A stretch of 64,000 nt of DNA. Origin: a virus. Below are positions 17,558 through 63,951 of this stretch, one piece after another. The stretch is from the IMG/VR virus record IMGVR_UViG_3300027754_000003, positions 1 to 64,000 of that record; one strand, 5' to 3'. Under the pieces are notes generated by a model that worked only from the letters and a program-made list of their open reading frames with translations, was not told the origin of the DNA and made no database searches. A program made the translations under genes and the position numbers. Numbering within the stretch: position 1 is the first letter of the stretch; every line of letters begins with the position of its first letter.

Positions 17558-17812
17558 TTATTTGATTGAGCGTTTATATGACATATCCCCCATTAAGGTG
17601 AGTAAGCGTAGCAGAGTGTGAACCATTCCAGCAAGTGTTGCTACTGCTAGACCTGACAGCCATCGGTCATCAAAAGGAACAATAAAGATTGTAATGTAAG
17701 ACAACACTGTTCCTGCAAGTACTTTTACCCAGGGCATTACTTCTTTTGGTAAAAGCGATTCAATAATTTGTAACACTTTGTAAACGGCTAATGCACAGAT
17801 GATGTAGTTCAT
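17558..17812 (-). CDS. small membrane protein, possible holin, 84 aa
   Basis: The ATG at 17812 overlaps the TGA of the tail protein gene (ATGA); an upstream TTG is not favoured. Two or three hydrophobic segments are present (about residues 2-20, 33-50 and 57-77), with a basic C-terminus SYKRSIK. Size and topology fit a holin, but another candidate set lies in the lysis region, so the assignment is weak. Confidence 0.55.
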   Translation of the reverse strand: MNYIICALAVYKVLQIIESLLPKEVMPWVKVLAGTVLSYITIFIVPFDDRWLSGLAVATLAGMVHTLLRLLTLMGDMSYKRSIK

Positions 17813-23045: not shown

Positions 23046-23293
23046 TGCGGTATTCTTATTTCCATTCCAGGATAGAGGTCCAATGGAAATGAAATTTGTG
23101 GGTTTACATCAGCAATACGCCACCATTGTGAAGCATCACCAAACAGTTTGAATGCCATATTTTCAATTGTGTCTCCTGAAATGACTAGGTAACGAGAAAC
23201 ACGAACTGGGTCGGAATCTTTTCGTGTAGCAATAATTTTTCCATCTGTACCAACTTCGTTACTAACGGAATATCTAGATAACCCAGTAAGCAT
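23042..23293 (-). CDS. LysM-domain baseplate protein, gpX/gp53-like
   Basis: The C-terminal 50 residues read as a LysM module with the phage pattern YLVISGDTIENMAFKLFGDA, WWRIADVNP and LYPGMEIRIP. Such small proteins join wedge parts in myovirus baseplates rather than degrading wall. Start and stop overlap the neighbours. Confidence 0.85.
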   Translation of the reverse strand: MLTGLSRYSVSNEVGTDGKIIATRKDSDPVRVSRYLVISGDTIENMAFKLFGDASQWWRIADVNPQISFPLDLYPGMEIRIPQ

Positions 23294-25422: not shown

Positions 25423-28175
25423 TACCTACTCCTCAATAGTTCTTTACGTAATTCTTTATCTAACATTTGAGCAATTTGGTTAGCCATTGCTCGTGCATCC
25501 TGAGTATTATTACCAGTAGAAGTAATATGGATAGTTGGTGAAATGGTTACATTTGTCCCACCACTAACAGTTACTTGTGTTCCTCCACGGGTAGGTGAAC
25601 TAAAGTGTGGGTCACCACGATTAAGACCGAGTTCTGTTACTGCTGCTTGAGCCTTTGGCATCCAATCTGCAGTGTCCGCCATCGGTCCACCTTTTTTATT
25701 CCAGGGTTGGTAGTTTCCACCGCCGAATTCTAAACGTGCGGCTTTAATATTTGTTGCTGGGTCCCAAAGTTCTTCATCGTTAGAGATACCATAACGCTTT
25801 CTACGTGCAGTACCCATAGGGTTTGTTTCAGTATCAAGCATATTCATTTGAAAAAGACCATATGATTTATCTGGTGGTTTTCCATTAAATGTTCCAGGAA
25901 TCCAATTAGATTCACGACCAGCAATAGCAAGCATGTTTACAAGGTCTTGTCCTTTAAACCCTCGCTTGTACATCATCTGAGCAATGGTTCGTGGGTCCAT
26001 TGCTTTCATGCTCCTAGTTCCCTTTGGCTGAGGTGAAGAAGAAACACTGCTTTGAGAAACACCGTTTACGCTTGGAGAAAGTGATGAACTGTCGGCTACA
26101 ACACCTGTCATTCCCATTGATGAGACTTGCTCTGACAATGACATACCCTGCATGTTTACATATGCCCCACCTTGCAAACCACCAGCAGCAACATACTTGT
26201 CACCAACGTAGTCAGGACCAACTCCATCCCAATTTCCTTTTGCGACACCAGCAGGTGTACCCCATTTTGAACCTTGTTTCTCGTATTCATATCGGGAGTT
26301 AGGAACATCGTTAGGTTGTACGTGCCATTTTTCTCCGTTTACATCTTTAAATGTCTTAAGACCAAATCGTTCTGCGTTAGCAACAACCCAATCAACATCT
26401 CCAACAAGGTCGGCAGCAAGTCCAATTTCGTGCATAGAACGACCTGGAGGTGCGGCTGGTGCGCCACTTACAAGTTTGTATTCTTTACCGTTCCAAGTAA
26501 CATCACCCTTTTGCCCATCGGTTACTTGTTTATAACGAGAGTTAAACAATTCTGTTTGTGTTTCTTGGCTACGAAAACCTTCACCAATACCTACGTTAGG
26601 GTTTTCTGCAAACATACGAAGCAATCGGTCTTTAAATGTTGAGTTAAGTTTTCCGAATGTAGGCACGTTCCCCAATGATGAAAGTGGGACACGGCTACCT
26701 TTCCCATAACCAACAGGAACACTTTTACCAGCAGATGCTGCTTGGTTACCAGCAGAACCTGGTTCAACAGCAGGGTCACCTCGGAACAGTGTTCCACCAA
26801 GCATGGTCATTGCCATACCTAGTGGTGCGGTAGCAGGGTTACTCATGGTCATAGCACCGATACCCATCAATGCTCCACCAATACCTTTTTCTACCAAACT
26901 TCCCTTTACATTCATGCGTTTACCAATTGCGCCAGAAAGTCCTTCTTCAAGTTTTCCTAATGCTTTGGTTACAGCCTGAGTGTTCTTTTCCATCTGGGCA
27001 AAGTTGTCAGCCTGTCGCTTATAAAAGTTTTCATCCCTTCCTTCTTTTGTTCGGGCAGTTTCCTCAGCCTGAGTAGCAAAGTTATCTTCAATACCCATCA
27101 TCTTTCGTTGTGATTTTTTGGAAGGGTCGTACATTCCCTTTCCACCTTTTTTCTTATACTGCACATTTGATTCTGCGTAGTCAAGAACGAGGTCAACCAT
27201 GTCTTCAGGAACACCCGATGCTAGCAAGCGAGCACGAGTAGCAGAACCTTGTTGGCGAGCACCAGTCAACATTTTTTCATTAGTAAGACCCGTACGTTGT
27301 GTAATGTCTCTAACTACTTGGTCCATTGAGCGTTGTTTACCACCAGCACCGTACAAACCAGTACCAAGCATCATGGTCATACGGTTGTTTACTTGGGCAG
27401 AACCAAGAGTTTGTGCCATCCCTGCCATGTCTCCAGCACTAAGCGAGTACCCAGATACTGCACGAAGACCTGCCATACCTGCGGCATTTTTTTGTGCATT
27501 AATACCAGTACTTGCTTGTAATGCAAGAAGTGTGTTAATTCCACCGTAACCTAAACGAGCACCCTGCAAAGGTTCACGCATCTGATGGTAATACTGGTTT
27601 TGACTAATACCCATGCGCTGTTGGTAAGATACACCCAACTTGTCAGCGCTAAGTGAACGGTCATAGTTAGAACTAATACGATTATCTAATGCAGCAATAG
27701 CAGCATTAACTACTTGTAGTGCTGTCGCACTCTTCAGACCTCTATTAGGAACAGGCGCATCACCATCACCACTAGGTCCCCTACCCATTGGTCCAAGGAT
27801 GTTGATAGTGTGTCCCTTAACACTTTGGATAGCATTGTTTGCTGAAGCATCATTAATAACAGAACCAGATAATGCAGGAACAGGATTGGCAGGGATAGCA
27901 CCAGCCGTTGGACTTCCACCACTACCGCCACCTAAAACACCAGGATTAATCTTAGAAATACCTTGAAGAAGTTTTAATGTTTTTTCTAACTTAGTGTTGA
28001 TGCTTGGTAATTGCTGATTAAGATATTGAAAGGAGGCTTTCATCTCCTTGACTCCAGCAGTCATCTTATTAAACTGCGTTGTATCTAATTTGAAGCGAGC
28101 ACGAACGTCAGCAGTAGCACTGCCTTTAGGTATTCCTTTACCGTTGCCTGAGAGGTCAGGTTCGTTCTTAGCCAT
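25422..28175 (-). CDS. tape measure protein with M15 peptidase and lysozyme-like domains
   Basis: The 917-residue protein has a helical N-terminus (32-75) and Gly/Ala-rich helices in the tape measure region (150-480). Residues about 505-620 form a VanY-type D,D-carboxypeptidase with GRSMHEIGLAADL (Ser580, His582, Asp589) and KWHV (His618). Residues about 725-850 form a lysozyme-like/transglycosylase domain with catalytic-type Glu755 in AGRESNW, then SYGLFQMN. The C-terminal part has a beta-rich TVSGGTNVTISP stretch. The wall-degrading domains suit a tail passing a thick Gram-positive wall. The next gene upstream is the frameshifted chaperone, as expected for a tape measure. Confidence 0.85.
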   Translation of the reverse strand: MAKNEPDLSGNGKGIPKGSATADVRARFKLDTTQFNKMTAGVKEMKASFQYLNQQLPSINTKLEKTLKLLQGISKINPGVLGGGSGGSPTAGAIPANPVPALSGSVINDASANNAIQSVKGHTINILGPMGRGPSGDGDAPVPNRGLKSATALQVVNAAIAALDNRISSNYDRSLSADKLGVSYQQRMGISQNQYYHQMREPLQGARLGYGGINTLLALQASTGINAQKNAAGMAGLRAVSGYSLSAGDMAGMAQTLGSAQVNNRMTMMLGTGLYGAGGKQRSMDQVVRDITQRTGLTNEKMLTGARQQGSATRARLLASGVPEDMVDLVLDYAESNVQYKKKGGKGMYDPSKKSQRKMMGIEDNFATQAEETARTKEGRDENFYKRQADNFAQMEKNTQAVTKALGKLEEGLSGAIGKRMNVKGSLVEKGIGGALMGIGAMTMSNPATAPLGMAMTMLGGTLFRGDPAVEPGSAGNQAASAGKSVPVGYGKGSRVPLSSLGNVPTFGKLNSTFKDRLLRMFAENPNVGIGEGFRSQETQTELFNSRYKQVTDGQKGDVTWNGKEYKLVSGAPAAPPGRSMHEIGLAADLVGDVDWVVANAERFGLKTFKDVNGEKWHVQPNDVPNSRYEYEKQGSKWGTPAGVAKGNWDGVGPDYVGDKYVAAGGLQGGAYVNMQGMSLSEQVSSMGMTGVVADSSSLSPSVNGVSQSSVSSSPQPKGTRSMKAMDPRTIAQMMYKRGFKGQDLVNMLAIAGRESNWIPGTFNGKPPDKSYGLFQMNMLDTETNPMGTARRKRYGISNDEELWDPATNIKAARLEFGGGNYQPWNKKGGPMADTADWMPKAQAAVTELGLNRGDPHFSSPTRGGTQVTVSGGTNVTISPTIHITSTGNNTQDARAMANQIAQMLDKELRKELLRSR

Positions 28176-44663: not shown

Positions 44664-46229
44664 CTAATTGAAAAAGGGATTTTCGCCAACTTGAATAGTG
44701 GGCATGGCATCGTACACAGACATGGCACAGGCAAGAGCCAATGAGTCTGGGTAGTCGTCAAATGCGCCCTTCTCATTAGGGGCTTCAGCCAACATATATG
44801 GACCACGATAGACCTTTTCAAGGTCATTCATCTGCTGATTAAAGCGCTTCCATGAACGGGTACGGCGAGCCTTAGAGTGTCCTGGGATTACTAATTGCTC
44901 ACGTTGAATCAATTCAGTTAGGTGTACCCAACGCTGGTTTTGATTTTTAGAGTCAGAAGTCATTGAAATCACTTCTATCTGGGGTAGCAAAATCTTAAGT
45001 CGTTCTGCCACAGCACCACCGACACCTTGTGAATCCACACCAATACGAAGAACATCGTAGTTTCTTAGGAAGTCAATGATTTGAAAATACTGCTGTTCCC
45101 ATTCTTGGTCGTTGATTTCTAGCCAGTTAAGAATGCGGTGCTCGTAAAAACCAAAAGGGTCTGGATGGTCCCAGTCAACCCAGCAGACAGTTACTACGGT
45201 AGAGTCGTTTGAACGAGCAACGTCAATCCCCACTACTACAGGAGTACGCCACCACTGTTTTACCAACGGCATAGATGGGTCGTAAAGTCTTTCCATACGT
45301 TCCTCAGTGACGAACATTCCCTTTTCCAACATCCATCGGTTGCAATACGACATCTGAAATTCGTCAGAGTCTTCACCAATGCGGAGTTTTTCTTTAGCAA
45401 TAAACTTCCCATAGTTAGAGTTGTATTTAGAAGCAACTTTGTAGTCGTACTCAAAATGGCAATCTCGTATTACTTTCCTGCTTTGGTTAATACGCCGTTT
45501 GTTGTATTGAATCATCTTGTAGAAATAGGACTTGTTACGAGAAGCCGTTCCAGTGAGCATGATGCTCCCGTTGTTAAACGCCAACATCGGCTTGATTGAC
45601 TTGGTAATCATAAACTCATCGGCTTCCTGAGCCTCGTCAATAAGCACAAAGTGGTAGGTCTTTGACTCAATCTTTGCCTTTGGGTTACAGGTCTGCATTC
45701 GGCAGATAGAACCAGAGCGCTTCATGGTGATGATTTTTCCCTTACCACGAGTACCACCAGAGGTAGCCTTGTCATCTAGTTCAGGGTCAAGGAGAAAACC
45801 AAGAGCGTGGTCGCTAGTCAAACGACTGACAATACGGCTAAACACGGTGTCTGCTTGGTCTTCAGTTGGGGCAAATACTCCAACCCAGAAACCTTTTTCA
45901 AACTTAGATAACCACGTTGGATAGATGCCTGAAAGTTTTGGAAGGATAACCATCATTGATGCAAGCACGTTGGAAAGCACTTCTGATTTACCAGATTGGC
46001 GAGTTGCAATTAAAGTTATTTCTTCACCGTCACCTAAGACAATGGACTCAATGATTCGGTACGCAATAGGGATTTGGTACGGAAATAGTTCAACATTGCA
46101 AAATTGCTCGGTAAAGAGAACCAGTTTTGTAACTAACTGGTCAACAAATTCAGCCGAGGTTTCGTCAAGTTCCTCAACTAATTCTTCGGCTAGTAACTCT
46201 TGTTCTTGGTCCAATAGGGAATCCGACAT
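44664..46229 (-). CDS. terL: terminase large subunit
   Basis: The 521-residue product has the ATPase motif ATRQSGKS (75-82), Walker B LIDEAQEADEF (196 onward) and a coupling-type TGTASRNKS. The C-terminal nuclease half has Asp336 in VVGIDVARSNDST, Asp399 in IGVDSQGVGG and a third acidic motif in GAFDDYPDSLALA. It cuts and pumps DNA into the head. No clear small-subunit gene is near; the two small genes next upstream are candidates. Confidence 0.93.
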   Translation of the reverse strand: MSDSLLDQEQELLAEELVEELDETSAEFVDQLVTKLVLFTEQFCNVELFPYQIPIAYRIIESIVLGDGEEITLIATRQSGKSEVLSNVLASMMVILPKLSGIYPTWLSKFEKGFWVGVFAPTEDQADTVFSRIVSRLTSDHALGFLLDPELDDKATSGGTRGKGKIITMKRSGSICRMQTCNPKAKIESKTYHFVLIDEAQEADEFMITKSIKPMLAFNNGSIMLTGTASRNKSYFYKMIQYNKRRINQSRKVIRDCHFEYDYKVASKYNSNYGKFIAKEKLRIGEDSDEFQMSYCNRWMLEKGMFVTEERMERLYDPSMPLVKQWWRTPVVVGIDVARSNDSTVVTVCWVDWDHPDPFGFYEHRILNWLEINDQEWEQQYFQIIDFLRNYDVLRIGVDSQGVGGAVAERLKILLPQIEVISMTSDSKNQNQRWVHLTELIQREQLVIPGHSKARRTRSWKRFNQQMNDLEKVYRGPYMLAEAPNEKGAFDDYPDSLALACAMSVYDAMPTIQVGENPFFN

Positions 46230-51074: not shown

Positions 51075-52649
51075 TTATCGTCTACGTCTAGATACGACTG
51101 GTGCAGGCAGTATAAATGATACCGTAGTGGCGGCTACCACGACACGGCGTACCCCTACAGATACAGTAGAATCCGTAGGAACGTAATTATCAAAGCCACC
51201 TTCAAAGACGTTAATTTCTTCTTCAAAGGCTTCTTTTACCTCTGTTGGCGCATTTTGTACAGCATCAACGATTGCTTGTGCTTGTTCTTCAGTTAACTCG
51301 CCAGTGTCTACTGTGGCGAAAATCTCAGTTGCTTGGTCAGCAGTTATGTTTTCCAGAACGGCTGCGCTCGTAGCAAGTTGTGTTGCTTGGTCGCTAGAAA
51401 TGTCTGTAGACAAAATGGTATCCACAACGTCTTGAACTTGCTCTTGGGTAATGTTGTCTGACTCCAAGATATTTAAAACCTCATCCAGAACCTCTGCGGT
51501 TATCTCAGTAAGGGTATCCAAGTTCTCAACCACGGCATCAACAATCTCTTGAACTTGCTCTTCTGTAATGTTGTCTGAGTTCAAAGCATCTACAACCTCG
51601 GACAAAATCTCTGGCGTAATTTCTGTAATGTTGGTCAGTTCTTCAACTACCGCATCTACTTCTTCTGCGGTAATTACGTTATCAACGACAGTATCTTCAG
51701 GGATAATTTCTTCAGGTGTAGTTGTGGTTGTGGTTTCTTCCTCAGTAGTATCAGGGTATGGTTCAGTTGTTGTTGTATCTGGCTCAATGGTCGTGGGCTC
51801 TGGCTCAGTTGTCGTGGTTGTTTCTTCGGGAAGCATCTCCTCTGGCGTGGGTTCCTCTACTACTGTCGTTGTGGTGCCTGTCGGTACTTCTACGACCTCT
51901 TCGGGAACGGCAGGGGCGATAGATGTTGTTGTGGTGCTTACTGGCATCTCCGTTGTCGTGGTACTTGGTTCTGGGACTGTTGTGGAAGTTGAAGAAGTCG
52001 TTGTCGTCTGAGGCTCAGTCGTAGATGTTGACGTTTCTAACGGCAGTGTCGTGGTCGTGCTTGATACTGTTGATGTTGTTTGGGGTACGGAAGAAGAAGT
52101 AGATGTTGTTGTAGAACTAGTGGTTGTTGTAGTTGTAGAACTAGTGGTTGTTGATTCAACAAGACCATTCCATAAAGACAAATTGCTAATTGTAAGATGC
52201 CCAGGTTGGCAGCAAGTATCTATTGAGTACTGGCGGAATGTGAACATATCACCTTCATTAACAGGTATAGATTTGGTTCCTGTTGCATTGTTCTGTTGTG
52301 TAAGCAAGGTGTACACGCCGTTAACCGCATACTGGGGTGGGTCATACACCCAACCATCATTGGTTTGATACGCCCACGTAAAATCAACTGTGTTCACATC
52401 GGCAGGGATTGTGGTTTCAATTTTGACCCAATGTGCTCCGCCACAAGGAGAACCTTGTGGTGCTAGTTGGTTATCAGGACCGTGCAAGGTAATACTGCTA
52501 CCAGAAACTTCAATGTACCCACCACAGTTTTGAGATTGACTGTATGTCCAGTTTCCAAGAGCATCTGCCTTAACAGAAGTAACTGGTGCAAACCAAGCCA
52601 GAAGCGCTACAGGGAGGTAAAACCAAAATCCTTTGCGTAGTTTAGGCAC
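51075..52649 (-). CDS. large secreted Thr/Ser-rich repeat protein with C-terminal membrane anchor
   Basis: The GTG-started product (524 aa) has a signal peptide (MPKLRKGFWFYLPVALLAWF, cleavage near ADA), a Cys-containing beta-rich domain (about 35-165), a long Thr/Ser/Glu/Pro-rich stalk (165-330) with runs of T and TTT words, and a C-terminal region (330-490) of degenerate helical repeats (ITEEQVQEIVDAV type). The end VVVAATTVSFILPAPVVSRR is a hydrophobic segment with an Arg cluster, like a cell-surface anchor. This is a host-like surface protein; it may mark the infected cell or be a virion adhesin. TATAAT precedes it. Confidence 0.7.
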   Translation of the reverse strand: MPKLRKGFWFYLPVALLAWFAPVTSVKADALGNWTYSQSQNCGGYIEVSGSSITLHGPDNQLAPQGSPCGGAHWVKIETTIPADVNTVDFTWAYQTNDGWVYDPPQYAVNGVYTLLTQQNNATGTKSIPVNEGDMFTFRQYSIDTCCQPGHLTISNLSLWNGLVESTTTSSTTTTTTSSTTTSTSSSVPQTTSTVSSTTTTLPLETSTSTTEPQTTTTSSTSTTVPEPSTTTTEMPVSTTTTSIAPAVPEEVVEVPTGTTTTVVEEPTPEEMLPEETTTTTEPEPTTIEPDTTTTEPYPDTTEEETTTTTTPEEIIPEDTVVDNVITAEEVDAVVEELTNITEITPEILSEVVDALNSDNITEEQVQEIVDAVVENLDTLTEITAEVLDEVLNILESDNITQEQVQDVVDTILSTDISSDQATQLATSAAVLENITADQATEIFATVDTGELTEEQAQAIVDAVQNAPTEVKEAFEEEINVFEGGFDNYVPTDSTVSVGVRRVVVAATTVSFILPAPVVSRRRR

Positions 52650-54940: not shown

Positions 54941-55225
54941 TTATAAAAAGTGCTTGAGGATAGCCGTGGTTGCTAGAACCACCCAACAAAGATTGAACCA
55001 AATGATTGTTGGCATGGTCTTGATTGTTGATGTGACAATCAAAGCGATGCTTGACGCAAGAGCAAAAAGGTACATCCACCACCATTGTTTATCAAAGATA
55101 AGACCTGGAACAATGATTGAAATCTTGGTCATAAAAGCCCAAGCCTCAATAATGTTCACCTTTGTCCAATAATCTCGGTCACCCCAACGGCGTGTTACCT
55201 GCATAATTTCTGATGGTTTTAACAT
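54941..55225 (-). CDS. membrane protein, 94 aa
   Basis: After a basic N-terminal stretch (VTRRWGDRDYWTKVN) there are three hydrophobic segments: FMTKISIIVPGLIF, WWWMYLFALASSIALIV and IIWFNLCWVVLATTAIL. It is an integral membrane protein with no known family. It could be a holin of the late region or a superinfection factor. Location between fibre genes and the cupin gene gives no further clue. Confidence 0.6.
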   Translation of the reverse strand: MLKPSEIMQVTRRWGDRDYWTKVNIIEAWAFMTKISIIVPGLIFDKQWWWMYLFALASSIALIVTSTIKTMPTIIWFNLCWVVLATTAILKHFL

Positions 55226-55234
55226 GGCTTTATC

Positions 55235-55639
55235 CTACTTGCTCATTGACAATCCTGCTCTAGGGGTCAGGGAAATAACCTCATGGTTTACTGTTGCTGG
55301 GACATAGATAAGGTCCCCAGGTTCTAGCGTGTAATCACCATAATCCGTAATCCATTTTGTTGAACCCTGGCATTGCCAAAAATAAACATCTTCCGTATCG
55401 TTATGTTTACCGAATCCGTGGTTTCCTTTTGCCGTAGACACGTAAACATGAGCCACAGTTAAGCCTAGGGTTTCCAAAACCGCTTCTGCGGACTTCATGG
55501 TGTGTCCATCTACGGTTGTCGTAAAGCACCCCCCAATGCGGCGAAACGAACCACCAGATTCTTTTGACGCTTCAATATTTTCGTTTATCTCATCCCATGT
55601 TGGGGTAGGAAAATAAAACCCTTTTGTAAAGATCACCAT
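55235..55639 (-). CDS. cupin-type protein, possible Fe(II) oxygenase, 134 aa
   Basis: The product reads as a small double-stranded beta-helix: VAHVYVSTAKGNHGFGKHND supplies His79-x-Asp81, and NHEVISLTPRAGLS supplies His119, the usual three iron ligands. A Trp/Gly-rich strand WITDYGDYTLEPGDLIYVPA matches the cupin core. It resembles JmjC/cupin_4-type oxygenases in miniature. It is transcribed away from the YkgJ-like gene. Confidence 0.7.
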   Translation of the reverse strand: MVIFTKGFYFPTPTWDEINENIEASKESGGSFRRIGGCFTTTVDGHTMKSAEAVLETLGLTVAHVYVSTAKGNHGFGKHNDTEDVYFWQCQGSTKWITDYGDYTLEPGDLIYVPATVNHEVISLTPRAGLSMSK

Positions 55640-55645
55640 TTTCCC

Positions 55646-55661
55646 ATACTAGCGCTAGTAT
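55646..55661. promoter_or_regulatory. 16-bp perfect palindrome with two divergent -10 boxes
   Basis: ATACTAGCGCTAGTAT is a perfect palindrome in the 28-bp gap between two divergent genes. Reading outwards, each half ends in TAGTAT, and the spacing to the ATG on each side is exactly six bases (GGGAAA on the minus side, CTGGTC on the plus side). This suggests two leaderless -10 boxes fused into one symmetric operator. Functional meaning is inferred; the symmetry is directly visible. Confidence 0.65.
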
Positions 55662-55667
55662 CTGGTC

Positions 55668-56159
55668 ATGGACAAAAAAGAACCATTTCATGTAGTTGTG
55701 CGAGATAGAAGTTGCGGAACATGCACAAAATGTTGTGAGGGTTACCTAGCAGGGGAAATCCAGGGGATACCTTTCTACGAAGGAAAACCCTGTCATTTTG
55801 TGGACATTGGTTCTGGATGTTCTATTTATGAAGACAGACCAGAAGAACCTTGTAAGGCATTCAAGTGCTTATGGTTATCTGACCCAAACTACCCAGAATG
55901 GTTGAAACCAAATATTAGTAATGTCATGTTTGTTGACAGGTACATTGGTCCACATCCTTATGTTTTTGCTAAAGAGGCTGGCGGGAAAATGGATGCCAGG
56001 ACATTATCTTGGGCAATAAACTACATGTCATTCAATAAGTTTAATTTTGCTTGGCAATATGACGGTGGGTGGAACGCAATAGGTACTGACGAGTTTGTTA
56101 AAGCCTATTTTGAAAATGAGCGATATTATGCCCCAAACGGAAAAGTTGAGAATCGCTAG
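55668..56159 (+). CDS. YkgJ-family Cys-rich metal cluster protein (only plus-strand gene)
   Basis: The 163-residue product has the YkgJ/Fe-S or zinc cluster motif with eight Cys: Cys16, 19, 22, 23 (CGTCTKCC), Cys42, Cys51 and Cys62, Cys67 (PCKAFKC). YkgJ-type proteins are thought to bind iron or zinc and often stand near oxygenase or modification genes. It is the only gene I find on the plus strand. Its TAG overlaps the TAG of the convergent oxygenase gene through the palindrome CTAG. Confidence 0.8.
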   Translation: MDKKEPFHVVVRDRSCGTCTKCCEGYLAGEIQGIPFYEGKPCHFVDIGSGCSIYEDRPEEPCKAFKCLWLSDPNYPEWLKPNISNVMFVDRYIGPHPYVFAKEAGGKMDARTLSWAINYMSFNKFNFAWQYDGGWNAIGTDEFVKAYFENERYYAPNGKVENR

Positions 56160-56713
56160 ATTGTTAGTTCAAGGAAATCAAAATTAAAAGCAATTACTGT
56201 CTTTCTTTTCTTTGAGTTATTCACTGGGGAGCGATGTATCAGGGATGCTGGAAATAGCACAACGTCACCTTCGGATACGTTGAATCTTCTCACGATTGAC
56301 GTATCAAACGGTTCAACAAACTCCGTCACACATTCCTGGTCTGGGAGTTCTAAATAATAAATACCAGAAAAGTTTGAACCAGCGTGATTGTGCCAATGGT
56401 GGTAGTCGCCACTCTCATATTGTTGGAACCAAACACCACGCATTTCAAGTGTTTTATGCAGTATTGAATCTGGGAGACTAGCCATGAAACCATTAATGTA
56501 TTCACAAAACAGAGATGACCACGGTCTTTCCTCTTCCAGCAATGAGAAATCATATCTAGAGATTCGTTCTAAGTTATTAGATGGGTCTTTCTTTGATTCA
56601 AAGTCAGCAGACTCTATGAGGCTTAACATAACTGGTTTTAGAGAGTCATGGTTTGGCATTTTTCTAACCATGTATGAACCGTGATATTGGTGTTTTGTTA
56701 CAAAATCAGACAT
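56156..56713 (-). CDS. 2-oxoglutarate/Fe(II) oxygenase-like protein, 185 aa
   Basis: The DSBH core shows HHWHNHAGSNFSGIYYLEL (iron ligand His108 or His110), EGDVVLFPASLIHRSPVN (His160) and KRKTVIAFNF (Arg170, 2OG contact). This is the 2OG-FeII_Oxy family seen in phages and bacteria that hydroxylates proteins or small molecules. Start ATG with AGAGGAA. Its C-terminus overlaps the plus-strand YkgJ gene by four bases. Confidence 0.8.
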   Translation of the reverse strand: MSDFVTKHQYHGSYMVRKMPNHDSLKPVMLSLIESADFESKKDPSNNLERISRYDFSLLEEERPWSSLFCEYINGFMASLPDSILHKTLEMRGVWFQQYESGDYHHWHNHAGSNFSGIYYLELPDQECVTEFVEPFDTSIVRRFNVSEGDVVLFPASLIHRSPVNNSKKRKTVIAFNFDFLELTI

Positions 56714-56723
56714 TGTTCCTCTT

Positions 56724-57368
56724 TTACACGTATTTTTGGTAGGTATTCATTGACTTGTGTAAGTACTTTTTTATCATTTTATTTTCACGTTTTTTGTAAG
56801 CGGTATGGTATTCCTCTGTACGAAGTGGGCTTACCCCTGTATTATTAAAAAACCAATGATCTGGTTCAGCATAGTGTGCAATAAATACTTCTACATAATC
56901 GTTATAGTTTTCTTTAGGAAACTCTGGCCTCCAGTGTAACTGCTTTACACCATTATACAAAAGAGCATCCCTGTCCCCCCATGTATATTCTTTTCCGTTT
57001 ACGTACATAGGCCATGAGACAGTTGATTTGAGTTGTATATCAATTGTGTATGTGCAGGCATTGTCGTCTAGATGTGGTGGCAAATTTGGAACGCCGTACT
57101 GTGGAGAGTACCGAAACCATTTAAAATAAGATGGTAATGCTGTACTAGAAAAGTTATCAACAACAATTTTATTTAATGTTTCGTATATTTCAAAAGGTAA
57201 AGATTCTCCATCAACAAATGTTGCTCTTGGGTCTGCACTTTTTCTTCCAACTGCGTTATTAAAATGGTTCTTTTTTTGTGGATGTGTGTTGATGTACTCA
57301 AGTATCACGCTCTGTTGCTGTTCAGAGATGACGTTTTTTAAAACTTTTGGTTTTTTTACCCTTTTCAT
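56724..57368 (-). CDS. 2-oxoglutarate/Fe(II) oxygenase-like protein, 214 aa
   Basis: I place the start at the ATG at 57368, overlapping the TGA of the gene upstream; a GTG 7 codons earlier is the alternative. The core has NLPPHLDDNACTYTIDIQLK (His-x-Asp) and GVKQLHWRPEFPKEN (distal His), with VEVFIAHYAEPDHWFFN at the end. The C-terminal 30 residues are Lys-rich. Substrate unknown. It is one of four such genes in the island. Confidence 0.7.
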   Translation of the reverse strand: MKRVKKPKVLKNVISEQQQSVILEYINTHPQKKNHFNNAVGRKSADPRATFVDGESLPFEIYETLNKIVVDNFSSTALPSYFKWFRYSPQYGVPNLPPHLDDNACTYTIDIQLKSTVSWPMYVNGKEYTWGDRDALLYNGVKQLHWRPEFPKENYNDYVEVFIAHYAEPDHWFFNNTGVSPLRTEEYHTAYKKRENKMIKKYLHKSMNTYQKYV

Positions 57369-58045
57369 ATAACTAATGAAGGTTTGCACTCAAACTGGAT
57401 TGGTTTATGCGGTGGTTCGTGGCAATCAATGAATGTACTAATCATCCATTTATCTCCAGAAATTGGAACTCTACCGACATGTGGGTGTGTCCAATACGCT
57501 GGAAATATTGATATGTCCCCTACAGATGCTGGAATAACAATATTGTGTGATGGGAATCCAGTCCCACCACCTACATCAACTGTGTTTAGGTACATGACAA
57601 CACCAAGAACACGCAAATTAATAGGGTTTGAGGACCAAGGGTCACCATCAGTATGTGACCTGTAAAACCCATCTCTTGGGGAGTACCTTTGGAGTCTATA
57701 ACCAGTGTCTTTTAAATCAACATGAAACAACTCAACGTATTCCTGAACGTACAATGCTAAAGCAGAATAAAGACCAACAGTTACTGCATCTTCACATTTA
57801 GTAAATACTGAACTGTTAATACCAAAAGAATCAACAACTGACTTTGAAAAAGAAAAGTCCATAGTGTTTTTTATTTTTGGGTTAAGCCCACCAAGTGTTG
57901 GCCCTGGTGAAAAAAGAGTTTCAAAGTTTTCAAGGCACTTAGTGACTAACTCAGAACATACGTTTTCTGGTATTGCATTTTTAACTACAGCAATAGCAGA
58001 AGATTTTCCAGCAGGGAATTCTATCCTCATTTGATTATCCGTCAT
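57365..58045 (-). CDS. prolyl 4-hydroxylase-type 2OG/Fe(II) oxygenase, 226 aa
   Basis: The product has YRSHTDGDPWSS (His131, Asp133), a strand LRVLGVVMYLNTVDVGGGTG and FPAYWTHPHVGRVPISGDKW (His187 or His189, Lys199). These match P4H-like dioxygenases; a Lys instead of the usual Arg/Lys 2OG residue is acceptable in this family. It may hydroxylate Pro or Lys in a protein, perhaps a tail fibre. Overlaps both neighbours by four bases. Confidence 0.8.
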   Translation of the reverse strand: MTDNQMRIEFPAGKSSAIAVVKNAIPENVCSELVTKCLENFETLFSPGPTLGGLNPKIKNTMDFSFSKSVVDSFGINSSVFTKCEDAVTVGLYSALALYVQEYVELFHVDLKDTGYRLQRYSPRDGFYRSHTDGDPWSSNPINLRVLGVVMYLNTVDVGGGTGFPSHNIVIPASVGDISIFPAYWTHPHVGRVPISGDKWMISTFIDCHEPPHKPIQFECKPSLVI

Positions 58046-58458
58046 GGTATGAATACTAGCGCCGAATCAACGAGATTTCCACCCTTCAAAATTTGGATTA
58101 AAAACTCTCCAGATTCTTCTGGAGTAAACGAACCTATTAGAGAATGTTTGTCCCGTAAAAATGAGTAATAAACACATTCTTTATCCCCGTTAGTCACGAC
58201 TAACTTGCAGTTTTCTACGGTTTCAAAATCGTTCAAATAATCAAACAATATTGGAAATGCGTGGTTAACTTCATCGGGTATATGCATCATAAACCCGTTG
58301 TTAACGGGAACTACTACTACACATGGTTTTGACCTATCAAACTCAATAGATTTTGTTTTTTCCGAATCACCTATTTGGATTGGAAGGCTCCACTCCTTGG
58401 CAAGTTCCTCTGCTTCTTCTAGTTGTTCTTCAGATTGGCAATAAACAATCCTATCCAT
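58042..58458 (-). CDS. hypothetical protein of the oxygenase island, 138 aa
   Basis: The protein is acidic, with an alpha/beta layout: MDRIVYCQSEEQLEEAEELA, then CVVVVPVNNGFMMHIPDEVN and a C-terminal LIQILKGGNLVDSALVFIP. No motif is recognised. It lies between the DUF6065-like and oxygenase genes, so it may serve the same pathway. Confidence 0.6.
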   Translation of the reverse strand: MDRIVYCQSEEQLEEAEELAKEWSLPIQIGDSEKTKSIEFDRSKPCVVVVPVNNGFMMHIPDEVNHAFPILFDYLNDFETVENCKLVVTNGDKECVYYSFLRDKHSLIGSFTPEESGEFLIQILKGGNLVDSALVFIP

Positions 58459-59320
58459 TTTTGTTTTCCTTACGCAGTTTTGTATCTATCTTATTTTGTT
58501 CTGCTTTGTACTTTCCATGAAAATCTTCGTTTCTCCACGCACCATCAAATCCAAGATTATCAAGGAGCGCATACATGGATGAATCTCCTCGTTTTAATGT
58601 TGATTTCTTTGTAGTGTCCTCACGTTTGAATGGGATTACGTGGTACAGAGGGGTTCCTTCTTTAATTACAAACTCGTTATCAACTTTTATATTCAAAACT
58701 ATGTTTGCATGATGGTAATAGTCAGTATTGACAACTCCAGCCATAACTTGGTAATTTTGGTTTGGTTCCCATTGAGGACCTATAAGCAATGATGAGTAGC
58801 CTGGTGCTGTCTTAATAAGCCAAGGATTTAGCAATTTTACATAATTAGATGTTTTTAATTTTCTATCGTTTGCCATTGGACACTCACCAGTTTGGGCAAA
58901 ATTAAACTGATTTTGAGCAACACCCTCGTCTGAAAAGTACTGTTTTTTTTCTTCTTCTGTAAGTACGCCCGTTTCCAATACAGTACTACTGGAGTGGTTG
59001 TATTTAGTATCCCATGTAGCATTTAACTTGCTTATAGGTGGTCGTATGGATATTTCTGCCCACATAGGTATTGTATACCCAGAACGCAAAAAATCTGATA
59101 GACCAGAACACGTACGAAGACTTGCATCTCCCTTTTGTAGTTTTTCATACCACTCTGCAAATTTTGTATTGCTTGCATAAGCGGAAATTGATGGATGATA
59201 AAAATGATTTGTTGGTGGTACCATCAAAACTTCATTTGGTTTAATTTCTGGTATTTGCTCCCAGGTATCTGCTTTTACTAGCCCATCTTCATTATTTTTG
59301 ATTTTTGAAAATAGACGCAT
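58451..59320 (-). CDS. hypothetical protein, DUF6065-like, 289 aa
   Basis: The protein contains WAEISIRPPISKLNATWDTK, GECPMANDRKLKTSNYVKLL, and a PLYHVIPFKREDTTKKSTLK segment like that of uncharacterised phage and bacterial proteins that stand next to halogenases. A family link is tentative. Its start overlaps the halogenase stop by 29 bases. Possibly a scaffold or binding partner of the oxidative enzymes. Confidence 0.5.
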   Translation of the reverse strand: MRLFSKIKNNEDGLVKADTWEQIPEIKPNEVLMVPPTNHFYHPSISAYASNTKFAEWYEKLQKGDASLRTCSGLSDFLRSGYTIPMWAEISIRPPISKLNATWDTKYNHSSSTVLETGVLTEEEKKQYFSDEGVAQNQFNFAQTGECPMANDRKLKTSNYVKLLNPWLIKTAPGYSSLLIGPQWEPNQNYQVMAGVVNTDYYHHANIVLNIKVDNEFVIKEGTPLYHVIPFKREDTTKKSTLKRGDSSMYALLDNLGFDGAWRNEDFHGKYKAEQNKIDTKLRKENKNG

Positions 59321-60770
59321 GTGGAACTCTCTTTCGTTGTAGTGTCATTGACCTTAGTGACGTATAGTGTTGAATTATTGGTTCTCTTGATTGATAAGCA
59401 TCTAGACCCATAGATGCTACTTCTTTTGGTATTAACCCCTGCCCTTGTGCAACGTGCCACAAATGAGGAGTAGCAAATAACTCATAACCAAACCTAGGAA
59501 TATCAGTGTCTAATGGTACTCGTTCTTTCCACAATTCAAGAAGAAAACTCAGTGTATCTGGAATTTTTGCGTTTTTCTGAGCAACCCACATAGCCGAATC
59601 TTCTCTATCTGATATGTAGTGCAATGAAATCATAGTCAGGATGTTATCCATTAAAGAATCAAAGGTTTTTCTGTAATGTTCAACCTGGGCTACTGACGAA
59701 GGTCCAAATGTTGGCAAAATTGCACAAATCATTCTTGCCTGTTGAATTGAGGTTGAAATTGATGTTGCCTCAAGTGGTTCTACAAAGGAGGAAGCAAGAC
59801 CAACGGAAGCACAGTTGAACTCAAAGGAGTGTTTAAAATACCCAGATTTGTATCTGATTATTCTTGCTGGGGTTATTTCCCTACCATATGCTTCAGAGAG
59901 TTCTTTAACGGCCTGATCGTCTGAGCAAAAATCAGATGCAAAGATATAACCATTTCCTCTGCGTTCTTGAGTTGGTATCTCAAACACCCAGCCATTTGCT
60001 AACGCTCGTGCTCTTGTGTATGGTCGGATTTCCCCAGACTCGTCTGGTGGTGTTGGAAATACTGCAGCAGAGTCAGTGGGCAAATAGTCTCTGTACGAAA
60101 TAAAAGTATCTTCTTTAACTAGTTGTGACATCAACATACGTTTAAACCCAGTTGCATCAATATAGAAATCTGCGGCAATGTTTAAACCAGTGTCTGTTGA
60201 AATTGATGTAATAAACCCGTTTTCTGGGTTTCTTTCAATTTTTTCAACAATTCCTTCATGCAACTCAACCCCTCTATCCTGAGCAAGTCGTTTGAGGTAA
60301 TTGTTTAGTTTGAAAGTGTCAAAATGAAATTGATTTGTTGTGTTGTGTTGTTGATGTGGGTCTTCCGTTTGGATAACCTCGTTATCCCATAGATGATCTG
60401 AGTTTACGGCTGCTGTGAGAGGCCACCCGTTTTCAAGTGCAAATGCATAGTTTGAGTAATAGTCGTTTGGCCCAAAGCCACCCTCTGAAACGCTATGAAA
60501 ATAGTCTGGTGTATGATTTGTCCAGTTTTCAAACCTGATTCCGTATTTGTGCGTTGCAGCGCATTCACGAACCATTTCATTAACATCTATACCGTGTGGG
60601 GTAGTAAAGAACTGTTTCCAGTGCTCTGTTGAGCCTTCCCCAACGCCAATTATTCCTATCTTTGCTGAAGATACAACTGTTAATTTGTAGTGTGGAAAAA
60701 AACCACGGGCCATTATCGCAGTAAGTAATCCAGCAGTACCAGAACCAACTATACAAACATGTTTTTGCAT
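59292..60770 (-). CDS. flavin-dependent halogenase, tryptophan halogenase-like
   Basis: The 492-residue product has the FAD motif VGSGTAGLL (8-16), IGVGEGST (41-48), a Lys in the tunnel-lining position (Lys75 in ATHKYGIRFENW), a GWVFEIP segment (260-266) in the position of the halogenase GWxWxIP motif but with Phe replacing the second Trp, and Glu334 in EPLEATS matching the catalytic-type Glu of PrnA. The fold and key residues fit a halogenase; the altered motif could mean a different substrate or a different reaction. The substrate is unknown. Confidence 0.85.
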   Translation of the reverse strand: MQKHVCIVGSGTAGLLTAIMARGFFPHYKLTVVSSAKIGIIGVGEGSTEHWKQFFTTPHGIDVNEMVRECAATHKYGIRFENWTNHTPDYFHSVSEGGFGPNDYYSNYAFALENGWPLTAAVNSDHLWDNEVIQTEDPHQQHNTTNQFHFDTFKLNNYLKRLAQDRGVELHEGIVEKIERNPENGFITSISTDTGLNIAADFYIDATGFKRMLMSQLVKEDTFISYRDYLPTDSAAVFPTPPDESGEIRPYTRARALANGWVFEIPTQERRGNGYIFASDFCSDDQAVKELSEAYGREITPARIIRYKSGYFKHSFEFNCASVGLASSFVEPLEATSISTSIQQARMICAILPTFGPSSVAQVEHYRKTFDSLMDNILTMISLHYISDREDSAMWVAQKNAKIPDTLSFLLELWKERVPLDTDIPRFGYELFATPHLWHVAQGQGLIPKEVASMGLDAYQSREPIIQHYTSLRSMTLQRKRVPHASIFKNQK

Positions 60771-60773
60771 GTA

Positions 60774-61379
60774 CTACCTAAACCAAGAAACAATTGAATA
60801 CTTTACTTCCTCGCTGTTTTCTCCAACAGGGTTAGCGTAATGGAAATACGGAAAGTTACTTGGGAACAAAACTACAGAACCAGCCTTTGGTTTTACTGTC
60901 ACATTAAGCAACGGGAATGTAAGTTCTCCACCATCACTAACGTCATTTACAAATCCAACAAGACTAAATACTCTCCCGTTATCTTGGTGGTGGTCAACAT
61001 GGCCCCGATATTCAGCGCCAGAACCATACTTAAGAATTCTGTAACCTTCGTTTGTTGATACTTCAATATTGAATGAATTTCTGTAATGCCAAATAACTTT
61101 TTCTAATTGTTCAGTAATATCTTGTGCGGATTTAGCCAAAGGTATTACTCTTTCAACTTGGATATTGTCAACTGGAGACATTAATGGAGAAAGTTCACAA
61201 CCTTGTGAAGAACGGTACGAACTTGTTGTTGCGGTGCTTTCTCCGCCAGTTTGCGACCTAAACCATTGGACATATCCCCAATCTTGTTTACATTCTCCTT
61301 CTAAAAGTTCTATAAAGTTTGATGGTTTAAAAGCATTCTCATACACGTATATACATGTACCAAGTTCAATTGGTTTCAT
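60774..61379 (-). CDS. 2-oxoglutarate/Fe(II) oxygenase-like protein, 201 aa
   Basis: The core shows EYRGHVDHHQDNGRVFSLVG (His127, Asp129), a strand FVNDVSDGGELTFPLLN, then AGSVVLFPSNFPYFHYANPV (His180) and EEVKYSIVSWF with Lys193. This is the P4H/2OG pattern. It starts just before the halogenase by a few bases, so the two are co-transcribed. A partner role in making a hydroxylated, halogenated product is possible. Confidence 0.8.
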   Translation of the reverse strand: MKPIELGTCIYVYENAFKPSNFIELLEGECKQDWGYVQWFRSQTGGESTATTSSYRSSQGCELSPLMSPVDNIQVERVIPLAKSAQDITEQLEKVIWHYRNSFNIEVSTNEGYRILKYGSGAEYRGHVDHHQDNGRVFSLVGFVNDVSDGGELTFPLLNVTVKPKAGSVVLFPSNFPYFHYANPVGENSEEVKYSIVSWFR

Positions 61380-61394: not shown

Positions 61395-62855
61395 TTAGGA
61401 ATCTATGTCTTTGATTATAGTCACGTTTGAGTTGGGTATGTGCGTAGAAATGTTTCTTGTGAAAACAACAAGGGTTCCAGGGGCTCCAGGGTTTCCACTA
61501 GCGCCAGGGTTTCCAGGGTTTCCAGAGTTTGCTGTCCCACCAGTACCACCTGGGTAGGTAGGGTTGTGATTTGCTACGGTTCCTGGGGTATGACCAGTGA
61601 CGTTGTGGGTATTGGCGTTATGACCACTGACATTGTGGGTATTAGCGTTATGATTAGCGACATCGTGGTGATTAGCGTTATGACCACTGACGTGGAAGTG
61701 GTTTGCATGGTGTCCATCTTGTGCAGCAACATGTTTTGTGTGTGAGTGACCTTTATGCGTTGGGTGACCAGCGTTATGCGCTGCGTTTCCTGCAGTATGG
61801 GCTGCTGGTCTATGGTGCGCTGGGTTATGGGTTTTTGGGGGAGTTGCACGAATAACGGTTGAAGCGTTATGAAGCGCTCCAAGGAAATGACTAGGGTTAT
61901 GGTATGGGTTTCCAGGAACTGTATGTGGGTGTTGGTGGTTTGGGTTTGAATATGGATGATTTGAAGCAGCAATATGCCACGCAATTGCTCCGCCTTCTGC
62001 ATGATTTGCATAAGCCCCACTACCAGAATCATGGTGGTTTGCAGTAGCCCCACTACCAGAATCTGAATGGTTTGCAGTAGCCCCAGTACCAGCATCCGTA
62101 TGGTTTGCAGTCGCTGGGTTTAAGTTTGCAGTACCAGCAACTGTTGTTCCAGCATTTCCTGCTACTCCAGCATTTCCAGAAGTGCCAGAAGTACCCGATG
62201 CTCCAGTAGTTCCCTCGCTCACAAAAGTTCCACTCCCAGTAATGTTGTTTGCAACAATAACCACTGAACCACCTGCTTGACCAAACGACCCACCAGTTCC
62301 CTTTAATCCCTTTGTCCCAGCAGTTCCAGCGTTTCCAGCAGTTGCGCCGCCTGCTGGTGAAGGAGCCGCTCCGCCTGGATTTGCAGTTCCGTCTGCTCCG
62401 TCTGCTCCGTCAGAACCAGCAGTTCCTTTTGTTCCAGGATACCAACGCTTAACTTGCAACCCAGTTTGACGTACTCCATAAATAAGTGAGTCGTAATCAT
62501 CAATAGAAGCAATAGATGCAATGCTTCCGTCAATAGCATCGGCAGAATTGTATCCAGCAGTCCCGTCATCACGAGTCATCACGCTTCCAGCAAGAACAGA
62601 CGTTGTCTGCGAGGTTCCGCTTGGCATACCTACTGTGCCACTGTTAGCAAGCGTTCCTTTTACAAATATCTTAAATCCGTTTGTGAATAACGTAATTCCG
62701 CTATTTACAGTCAGGTTGTTGTAGTACATATCTCTAGAAATAGTTTGATTAGTAGATATGACAACATTACCGTCAGCACCGTTTCCAAATAATTTTAACG
62801 CTCTGTCGTTTTGAGCAGTCTTGTTTGAAGGTTTGTTGAGTCTAATTTTTTTCAT
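61395..62855 (-). CDS. tail fibre-like protein with collagen-like and His-rich repeats
   Basis: The 486-residue product has an N-terminal beta module (25-80) with GNVVISTNQTISRDMYYNNL, shared with the next gene, then Gly-rich collagen-like stretches (about 140-240 and 435-462). Between them lie four 11-residue ATANHxDxGxG-type units (about 248-290) and four 10-residue HNANxHxVxG-type units (about 381-422), with 50 or so His between 250 and 430. The C-terminus ends in a beta strand. It is probably a trimeric fibre; the His units may bind metal. Starts ATG, overlapping the next gene stop. Confidence 0.75.
   Translation of the reverse strand: MKKIRLNKPSNKTAQNDRALKLFGNGADGNVVISTNQTISRDMYYNNLTVNSGITLFTNGFKIFVKGTLANSGTVGMPSGTSQTTSVLAGSVMTRDDGTAGYNSADAIDGSIASIASIDDYDSLIYGVRQTGLQVKRWYPGTKGTAGSDGADGADGTANPGGAAPSPAGGATAGNAGTAGTKGLKGTGGSFGQAGGSVVIVANNITGSGTFVSEGTTGASGTSGTSGNAGVAGNAGTTVAGTANLNPATANHTDAGTGATANHSDSGSGATANHHDSGSGAYANHAEGGAIAWHIAASNHPYSNPNHQHPHTVPGNPYHNPSHFLGALHNASTVIRATPPKTHNPAHHRPAAHTAGNAAHNAGHPTHKGHSHTKHVAAQDGHHANHFHVSGHNANHHDVANHNANTHNVSGHNANTHNVTGHTPGTVANHNPTYPGGTGGTANSGNPGNPGASGNPGAPGTLVVFTRNISTHIPNSNVTIIKDIDS
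61630..61735. repeat. DNA repeats encoding HNANxHxV units
   Basis: About four copies of a 30-bp unit, diverged in places, encode the 10-residue His-rich units of the fibre. They are in frame and of one length, which shows recent tandem growth. Confidence 0.6.
61980..62112. repeat. DNA repeats encoding ATANHxDxGxG units
   Basis: About four copies of a 33-bp unit, upstream (in reading order) of the 30-bp units in the same gene. Confidence 0.6.
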
Positions 62856-63589
62856 TATCCAACCTGCATGTAATAGACAGTTCCACTAGCACAGCCAGTA
62901 CCCCCAGTTACGTCTGTTGATACTGCTGCATTTAAACTTGAATCAGAAGAGATAATTAAGACTACACCACCGCCACCGCCACCTGCTCCTGGAGTTCCAG
63001 GGGCAGAAATGTAAGCAGTGCCTGAAGTTACTGTAATGTACCTAGCAACGACCATAACAACGCCACCACCTGCGCCAGCAGTTCCACCAGCGCCACCACG
63101 AAGAAATGTCGGGGTTGGACTAGCGGCAGATACCGCCCATCCTTTAACTGCTTGGAGTGGTTGTTGGTAATAGATAGAACTACCAAGGGCTGCTGTTGGG
63201 GCAGTGGCGGTTTGTGAGGCACTAGCACCACCAAGACTGTGAGTAACTGATGCCGATGTACCCCCACCTTGTCCTAACGTGCCAGCAGTAGAATAACCAG
63301 TCGTATAACCGATTCTTGCTCCAGGACCAAGTGTTAGGACATTACGAACAAACAACCTATAGCCGTTTGTTGACACGGTAATACCACCAGCAATAGTTAG
63401 GTTTGTATAAAACTTGTCCTCAGTCAAAGAAGTGTTAGCGGAAATTGTTGCATCACCGTCTGAGCCAGAACTGTAAATAGGGTCAGGAACATTAATGTAA
63501 TCAACTACATCAGTCCATGTACTTGAGATTGTAGATGTACTTTCCGCAGTTGATATTGTCGTTCCATTTAAGCGAACGAACGATGCCAT
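62855..63589 (-). CDS. tail fibre-like protein, paralogue of the N-terminal part of its neighbour
   Basis: The 244-residue product shares the N-terminal module of the gene downstream (DGDATISANTSLTEDKFYTN, LTIAGGITVSTNGYRLFVRN), then has Gly-rich and Thr/Ser-rich beta segments (GAGGGGGGVVLIISSD near the end). It lacks the His-rich part. Duplication of the module within the locus is likely. It overlaps both neighbours by one base. Confidence 0.7.
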   Translation of the reverse strand: MASFVRLNGTTISTAESTSTISSTWTDVVDYINVPDPIYSSGSDGDATISANTSLTEDKFYTNLTIAGGITVSTNGYRLFVRNVLTLGPGARIGYTTGYSTAGTLGQGGGTSASVTHSLGGASASQTATAPTAALGSSIYYQQPLQAVKGWAVSAASPTPTFLRGGAGGTAGAGGGVVMVVARYITVTSGTAYISAPGTPGAGGGGGGVVLIISSDSSLNAAVSTDVTGGTGCASGTVYYMQVG

Positions 63590-63951
63590 TACGACTCCTC
63601 AATACCAGTAAGGATAATATTTACTGCTGAGTTAGTACTTGCCGAACCAATGATTTGGTCGCTATTTGTAGCGTTTGCAGTGCTTCCGTTGTTGTTTAAC
63701 ACCAAAGATGTTGAAATGGTTACAGTTTCGTTTGCTGCTAAAGAAAGAACATTTAAGAAGTTTTGTGACGAAGCCTGAGCCACGTTGAGGGGTTTTAGCA
63801 CCAAAGTAACTGTTACAGCACTACCAGTGGTGTTACATAGCAAGATTTGCTTGATGATTGTGGTAGTACTGATTGGCGTGGTGTACAGCACCGTTGATGT
63901 TGTCGTAGTCAACTGGGTTGGCCCAGAAAGACGTTTTTGGGTGACTGGCAT
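63589..63951 (-). CDS. tail-type structural protein, 120 aa
   Basis: The protein is beta- and Thr/Ser/Asn-rich, with STTTIIKQILLCNTTGSAVT and LAANETVTISTSLVLNNNG. Its strand pattern resembles the 109-aa protein at 54565-54894, so both may be decoration or fibre subunits. It ends one base before the next gene. GGAGG lies seven bases before the ATG. Confidence 0.65.
   Translation of the reverse strand: MPVTQKRLSGPTQLTTTTSTVLYTTPISTTTIIKQILLCNTTGSAVTVTLVLKPLNVAQASSQNFLNVLSLAANETVTISTSLVLNNNGSTANATNSDQIIGSASTNSAVNIILTGIEES

Follow-up and report, generated by a model that had tools for sequence, protein, structure and literature searches.

The analysed sequence is the first 64 kb (the window) of the 98,060-base virus record IMGVR_UViG_3300027754_000003, whose source phage is from freshwater. 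It carries a compact cassette in which a gene for a flavin-dependent halogenase (FDH) is packed together with genes for 2-oxoglutarate (2OG)-Fe(II) oxygenases, next to tail fibre genes. The original prediction, covering positions 55235–61379, listed a halogenase, four oxygenase-like genes, a small cupin, a YkgJ gene and two unknowns flanked by tail fibre genes. We found all of the claimed open reading frames (ORFs) at these positions. The oxygenase genes are present but number five rather than four, given that the small cupin is a JmjC-like fifth candidate. The fibre genes are indeed adjacent, but the long fibre gene (61395–62855) lies directly upstream of oxyD on the same strand and is part of the cassette unit rather than a flank, leaving the first interval one gene short.

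The halogenase and oxygenase cassette

The features of the locus, with lengths in amino acids (aa) where given, are as follows.

54941–55225, minus strand: small protein of 94 aa, often at the distal end of the cassette; 37 loci
55235–55639, minus strand: small JmjC-like cupin, fifth oxygenase candidate, accessory; PF08007 (JmjC_2), E 1e-11
55668–56159, plus strand (opposite to its neighbours): YkgJ-like CxxCxxCC protein, accessory; phrog_9155, E 6e-33
56156–56713, minus strand: oxyA, putative 2OG-Fe(II) oxygenase, accessory; PF13759, E 1e-13
56724–57389, minus strand: oxyB, 2OG-type oxygenase, frequent member; phrog_2954 (PHROG label "ferrochelatase")
57365–58045, minus strand: oxyC, 2OG-Fe(II) oxygenase, core member; phrog_61, E 3e-23
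58042–58458, minus strand: unknown protein of 138 aa, frequent member; no family; 49 loci
58451–59320, minus strand: DUF6065-like protein, core member; phrog_7084, E 8e-30
59292–60770, minus strand: FDH, core member; PF04820 (Trp_halogenase), E 8e-97; phrog_2928, E 8e-101
60774–61379, minus strand: oxyD, 2OG-Fe(II) oxygenase, core member; PF13640, E 2e-13
61395–62855, minus strand: long fibre/adhesin of 486 aa, proposed substrate; phrog_8745 (tail fibre), E 2e-4
62855–63589, minus strand: short fibre of 244 aa; phrog_13336, E 2e-5
63589–63951, minus strand: small conserved protein of the fibre module, 120 aa; phrog_20100, E 8e-7; 61 loci

In the direction of transcription on the minus strand, the order is short fibre, long fibre, oxyD, FDH, DUF6065-like gene, 138-aa unknown, oxyC, oxyB, and oxyA. 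Beyond oxyA, the YkgJ-like gene lies on the plus strand, followed by the cupin on the minus strand. From the short fibre through oxyB, neighbouring genes overlap or are separated by at most 16 bases, which suggests a single transcription unit. A megablast search of the region against cultured phages gave no match, and profile searches assigned no family to the 94-aa protein.

The FDH scored 325 bits against PF04820, where the curated cut-off is 21. Residues G9, G11, and G14 of the GxGxxG motif, K75, F329, and the stretch E331–T336 were invariant in 15 aligned sequences, and the VEPLEAT block is conserved; we presume that the catalytic positions correspond to K79 and E346 of PrnA, a match made by motif rather than by structure. 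At the WxWxIP position the window FDH reads GWVFEIP, while the consensus of its relatives is GWMWEIP. The enzyme looks intact, and halogenation is predicted. Relatives in the PDB include 6nsd (E 1e-60), MibH (5uao, E 8.5e-40), and VirX1, the FDH of cyanophage Syn10 (6qgm, E 7e-38). With the NCBIfam equivalog model of QhpG, the FDH scored 28.5 bits (E 7e-7), far under the cut-off of 240.

Four of the five oxygenase candidates conserve an HxD...H iron site together with a downstream Arg or Lys. The invariant residues were H127, D129, H180, R136, and K193 of oxyD (17 sequences); H131, D133, H189, and K199 of oxyC (16 sequences); H106, D108, and H152 of oxyB (70 sequences, with R154 in 94%); and H79xD81...H119 and R127 of the cupin (6 sequences). 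The PHROG label of oxyB as a ferrochelatase was rejected, as the protein has the HxD...H triad instead. OxyA scored above the PF13759 cut-off, yet its invariant residues in nine sequences were H108xH110...H160, not HxD/E...H. In the YkgJ-like protein, eight cysteines, including C16xxC19xxC22C23, were invariant in 12 sequences, and its match to the Pfam CxxCxxCC family was sub-threshold. No relation was detectable between the 138-aa unknown and the small gene that precedes cyanophage FDHs.

In most loci, and also in several cyanophages, the DUF6065-like gene is the neighbour of the FDH. A fold search with its model (pLDDT 72) returned dUTPases for nearly all top matches, which were weak (best E 4e-4, TMt 0.68). 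We take the NTDYYH/HTDYYH region to be the counterpart of dUTPase motif III (GVIDxDY, containing the catalytic Asp), and in all 20 aligned sequences this Asp is replaced by Asn or His before an invariant TD. A dUTPase function was rejected because the catalytic Asp is missing. Homologs were also observed in Haloarcula virus HCTV-8 (L229:7842-8675) and related haloarchaeal tailed viruses, where a few genes separate them from a putative adhesin and tail fibre and no FDH is annotated near them.

The long fibre has a beta-helix-like N-domain, Gly-rich segments resembling polyglycine-II (PGII), a His-rich repeat insert at about residues 245–430, and a Gly-rich C-terminus. No other strongly His-rich ORF was found in the 98-kb record. 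The Pfam Collagen repeat match was sub-threshold, and tblastn against cultured phages gave no match. In the AlphaFold model, the N-domain and the Gly-rich coil are confident, while the insert has a pLDDT below 50. Judged by its sequence pattern, the protein resembles a gp38-adhesin-like PGII protein. The short fibre belongs to the same N-domain family, has no aromatic insert, and normally precedes the long fibre.

Relatives of the cassette and the composition of the fibre insert

Scanning IMG/VR with the window FDH gave 68 loci at 41–88% identity, with near-identical loci kept in the counts. Across these loci and the window, we observed FDH in 69, oxyD-type and oxyC-type genes in 65 each, DUF6065 in 64, and the long-fibre family in 61, followed by the 138-aa unknown (49), oxyB (31), ykgJ (8), cupin (4), and oxyA (4). 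The nine genes first described are, therefore, a conserved core plus rare extras, and conservation of the entire set was rejected given the rarity of the cupin, ykgJ, and oxyA. Gene order is shuffled among the relatives: oxyC is found on either side of the FDH, and the fibre pair lies upstream or downstream and is inverted in one group. Despite this shuffling, the fibre, oxyD, FDH, DUF6065, and oxyC remain together, and scans led by DUF6065 or by the fibre recovered the same gene block. The original prediction had proposed a search for co-occurrence across phages as a check, with absence of the set from other genomes as one half of its refuting condition. The outcome here spoke against refutation: almost all of the 68 IMG/VR relatives share the core as a group, and so do independent T4-like cyanophages, described below.

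The N-domain and the Gly-rich segments are common to the long-fibre relatives, and the insert between them varies in length and sequence. Five scans, two of which started from FDH-negative sequences, yielded 105 fibres at below 85% identity, 102 of which were informative. We found that the insert was His-dominated in 69/70 fibres from FDH-positive loci and in 1/32 from FDH-negative loci. The 22 fibres from FDH-negative loci with DUF6065 and oxygenases had Tyr- or Phe-rich inserts. Ten further loci had no FDH, DUF6065, or oxygenase labels, and nine of these had no aromatic-rich insert; the tenth, L371, is His-rich, has two oxygenase genes, and reaches its contig end 2 kb downstream. An aromatic-rich insert was present at 91/91 loci with DUF6065 and at 2/11 without it. 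Fisher tests that ignore tree kinship gave p = 7e-24 for FDH and His and p = 2e-11 for DUF6065 and an aromatic insert. All 70 FDH-positive inserts contain at least 9 His, while Trp is absent from 29 of them; should the FDH act on the insert, His would therefore be the residue that is present in quantity in every case. Further His-rich ORFs with another repeat (GNQSANHSHSMGHTHSG...) were seen in two FDH-positive loci (L113:11269-13350 and L125:2720-3694), where they apparently represent a second fibre type.

The record also contains contractile tail genes (sheath and baseplate wedge), and its terminase (44664–46229, minus strand) is 45–47% identical to those of Streptomyces phages BRock, LuckySocke, Alone3, and GiJojo. 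With Streptomyces phages as its closest terminase relatives, the phage likely has an actinobacterial host. The record resembles a distant actinobacterial myovirus of the BRock/LuckySocke kind, whose genomes are about 113–116 kb. A 9-kb contig from an Actinomycetota-labelled metagenome-assembled genome carries a His-rich fibre end, oxyD, FDH, and DUF6065, and may itself be viral.

Adhesin and halogenase pairing in T4-like cyanophages

The FDHs of T4-like cyanophages are at most 38% identical to the window FDH. In phage syn9, gp38 is a Gly-rich tip protein (PF21722, phrog_863) with His-enriched loops. It matched 20 phage records, and an FDH was present in 20/20. For comparison, a portal search restricted to Synechococcus and Cyanophage names listed at least 443 T4-like cyanophage records, versus 59 FDH records under the names Synechococcus, Cyanophage, or Prochlorococcus; for the 11 distinct syn9-gp38 phages, this corresponds to a hypergeometric p of about 1e-10, uncorrected for relatedness. 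In the nine phages mapped, the FDH lies no more than a few kb beyond two or three adhesin genes and is itself followed by 2OG genes; in six of the nine, relatives of DUF6065 also come after the FDH (E 4e-16 to 7e-5). Among IMG/VR loci with syn9-type adhesins, an FDH was found in 63/64 overall, and it was adjacent in 49/49 with adequate flanks. For the S-SRM01-type adhesin, which is Trp-rich and nearly His-free, the figures were 12/15 overall and 7/7 with flanks. The loci of both types that lack an FDH are cut off near the adhesin.

In Synechococcus phage S-SRM01 itself (L382:9491-10579), the gene directly after the FDH encodes an adhesin whose insert is rich in Cys and Trp (NWWGNCWWEASQW). Adhesin copies that appear broken, with internal stops or a frameshift-like stretch, were seen beside intact ones in S-CREM1 (L384:6001-6798) and in syn9 (gp39, L075:6170-7348). 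Virions of S-CREM1, whose adhesins include SCREM1_66 and SCREM1_67, have been analysed by LC-MS/MS against the predicted ORFs of that phage (PMC9964418). A search near the FDH for ORFs with at least 15% His in a 60-aa window found none in P-SSM2, S-H38, or HTVC008M; at this threshold, syn9 gave one minus-strand ORF among plus-strand annotated genes, and gp38 was found at a lower threshold. Actinomycetia phage DSL-LC01 (L378) has a distant FDH (25% identity) directly after two collagen-like proteins and a Tyr-rich hypothetical protein and before a glycosyltransferase.

Isolates of the single species S-RIM44 offer a direct comparison. Between the long fibre and gp13, S-RIM44 Np_42_0711 (L391/L393) carries three adhesins, a small gene, two FDHs, DUF6065, and several oxygenase- or cupin-like genes, four recognised by hidden Markov model match and one more by its sequence. 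At the same place, S-RIM44 W2_10_0709 (L392) has an unrelated tip protein, a small gene, and one 2OG-type oxygenase gene. The right flanks of the two isolates are 96.6% identical, while the fibre gene is 65–70% identical. Given this block difference beside a nearly identical flank, the enzymes follow the tip. Three FDH places are listed for precisely those S-RIM44 isolates that have the adhesin match. The independent adhesin lineages and the S-RIM44 block exchange give stronger support than the three insert classes.

Candidate substrate and alternative explanations

Gene content, conservation of catalytic residues, co-occurrence, and block exchange are directly established. The earlier suggestion that the genes act together, probably as a modification pathway, gains support from the recurrence of the core in relatives and in T4-like cyanophages. 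Among the substrates then offered, the adjacent fibre is clearly favoured, as its composition tracks the enzyme set and, in S-RIM44, adhesin and enzymes change places as one block, while nothing we found points to a host metabolite or a surface glycan. We consider the adhesin the probable substrate of the cassette. During assembly, the 2OG-Fe(II) oxygenases would hydroxylate residues in the exposed insert of the long fibre, and the FDH would halogenate residues of the same insert, making it a modified receptor-binding tip protein. The leading candidate for the FDH target here would be the histidine imidazole of the His-rich repeats, while in the S-SRM01 cyanophage family Trp or Tyr would be more plausible. 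FADH2 would come from a host flavin reductase, because none was recognised among the cassette genes. The DUF6065-like protein may, speculatively, serve as a non-catalytic, trimeric adaptor with a dUTPase fold, and the oxidised and halogenated loops would alter the stability of the tip or the way it binds its receptor or metal. In this scheme we infer the substrate, the residue, the order of steps, and the benefit. Histidine as the halogenated residue in this phage group is a tentative assignment, its chances somewhat below even. Ranking a little lower is the wider proposal that many aquatic tailed phages diversify their receptor-binding tips post-translationally, with an adhesin and its own halogenase and hydroxylase set inherited and exchanged as a unit and the enzymes matched to loop His, Tyr, or Trp; the present phage would then provide the first enzymatic protein-histidine halogenation and the first halogenated virion.

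Several known systems are comparable in part, and two of them, QhpG and MibH, serve as precedents. MibH, which is homologous to the window FDH, is an FDH that acts on Trp of a ribosomal peptide in a lanthipeptide pathway; this is secondary metabolism, without 2OG partners of the cassette kind. JmjC/ROX and 2OG protein hydroxylases have HxD...H Fe(II) sites in common with the cassette oxygenases, and the JmjC_2 family includes protein Arg and His hydroxylases, whereas the window cupin is small, divergent, and present in few loci. For the gp38 adhesins of T-even phages S16 and PP01, we know of no modification enzymes encoded next to them. These adhesins combine a beta-helix, a PGII sandwich, and hypervariable receptor loops (PMC12892980), and the long-fibre sequence suggests the same layout, although with an aromatic insert that is much longer and repetitive. 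QhpG, an FDH-like flavoprotein, hydroxylates Trp within a mostly coiled polypeptide (PMC7876137), so the fold is FDH-like and the target is an aromatic residue of a protein, but the reaction is hydroxylation rather than halogenation.

Some observations weigh against modification of the adhesin, and of its histidines in particular. We know of no FDH that acts on histidine, and to our knowledge such halogenation would be new. The fibre model is poor overall (pLDDT 57), and the long fibre has no PDB match by fold or by sequence, so the PGII fold is read from the sequence pattern. L193 is an exception among the FDH-positive fibres, as its insert is not dominated by His. The N-domain tree requires just 3 changes of the FDH label and unites the Tyr class in a single clade, which puts significance out of reach of a pairwise test; within this fibre family, the FDH–His link comes down to 2–3 tree changes, and the sign test was not significant. 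The Fisher p-values were rejected as independent evidence for this reason. Finally, the FDHs of HTVC008M and Campylobacter CP21, and the S-RIM44 FDH near talC, are not beside an identified adhesin.

The enzymes might instead make a halogenated, hydroxylated small molecule (an antibiotic, a signal, or a modified amino acid), with the fibre adjacency due to chance layout. A halogenated metabolite has been proposed for the S-SSM6a gene cluster (PMC7824862), cyanophage FDHs are usually annotated as pyrrolnitrin-type (PMC2984593, PMC9964418), and VirX1 takes many small aromatics in vitro (PMC8407142). The T4-like phage S-SSM6a likewise has an FDH together with genes of the 2OG and cupin types, but its cluster includes carbamoyl transferases, a HemK-like methylase, and phosphatases (PMC7824862) that were not seen in the window cassette. 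We regard this explanation as unlikely: no recognisable assembly or transport enzyme is found among the cassette genes, and pairing with three adhesin families plus exchange of the block with the tip would be unexpected for a free metabolite pathway.

The His-rich insert could also be a metal-binding, Ferrojan-type tip, with the enzymes hitch-hiking in a recombination hot spot. Tail-fibre HxH motifs bind iron in T4 gp37, as is proposed for marine phages (PMC11705849), and FDH-positive inserts have a median of 5 HxH motifs. However, FDH-negative inserts from DUF6065-positive loci likewise have a median of 5, the almost His-free S-SRM01-type adhesin still has its FDH neighbour wherever the flanks are covered, and the same enzyme core in distant lineages is not expected of free hitch-hiking; we give this account the same low weight as a small-molecule product. 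Modification of a host surface glycan or receptor, e.g., against re-infection, ranks just below these two. A shared receptor would link such enzymes to the adhesin and would also account for co-exchange and for the tracking of adhesin type, but it leaves unexplained why the make-up of the fibre (His, Tyr, or no insert) goes with the set of enzymes, and the core set has no glycosyltransferase. A role in 2OG pools, nitrogen signalling, or DNA repair unrelated to fibres, as suggested for cyanophages (PMC3037559, PMC2984593), is highly improbable, since the oxygenases accompany fibres, FDH, and DUF6065 in a phage whose closest terminase relatives infect Streptomyces rather than cyanobacteria, and fibres without an aromatic insert also lack these oxygenase families.

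Halogenase genes in cyanophage genomes are a long-standing observation, and one of the enzymes, VirX1, is used in biocatalysis, yet the papers covered here give no native substrate for phage halogenases. Published proposals for the role of the FDHs are antibiotic protection (PMC2984593, PMC9964418, PMC9146016) or a halogenated metabolite (PMC7824862), and the cyanophage 2OG genes have been suggested to act in DNA repair or 2OG signalling (PMC3037559). In the open-access literature we found no paper tying a phage halogenase to a fibre or adhesin; subscription papers may hold prior suggestions. The review passages covered here state no native substrate for VirX1 (PMC8407142). Like the window FDH, VirX1 is viral, and in syn9, which is near-identical to Syn10, an FDH pair comes after the gp38-type adhesins and before DUF6065 and 2OG genes. 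The window FDH differs in being about 28% identical to the best syn9/Syn10 FDH, and the adhesin loops flanking the FDH there are only modestly His-enriched. The adhesin pairing thus offers halogenases such as VirX1 a concrete native-substrate candidate in cultured phages, and its presence in marine phages suggests that phages modify the protein with which they grip the host. If true, phages would extend the chemistry of host-recognition loops past the 20 amino acids, with a bearing on host range, on how adhesin sequences are read, and on enzymes able to halogenate residues within proteins.

Elsewhere in the window, four other minus-strand ORFs had no PHROG match. One (51075–52649, 524 aa) combines a GatB/YqeY-type match with a long Thr/Ser-rich, mucin-like stretch; the others, of 542, 709, and 917 aa (17809–19437, 23293–25422, and 25422–28175), lie near the baseplate genes.

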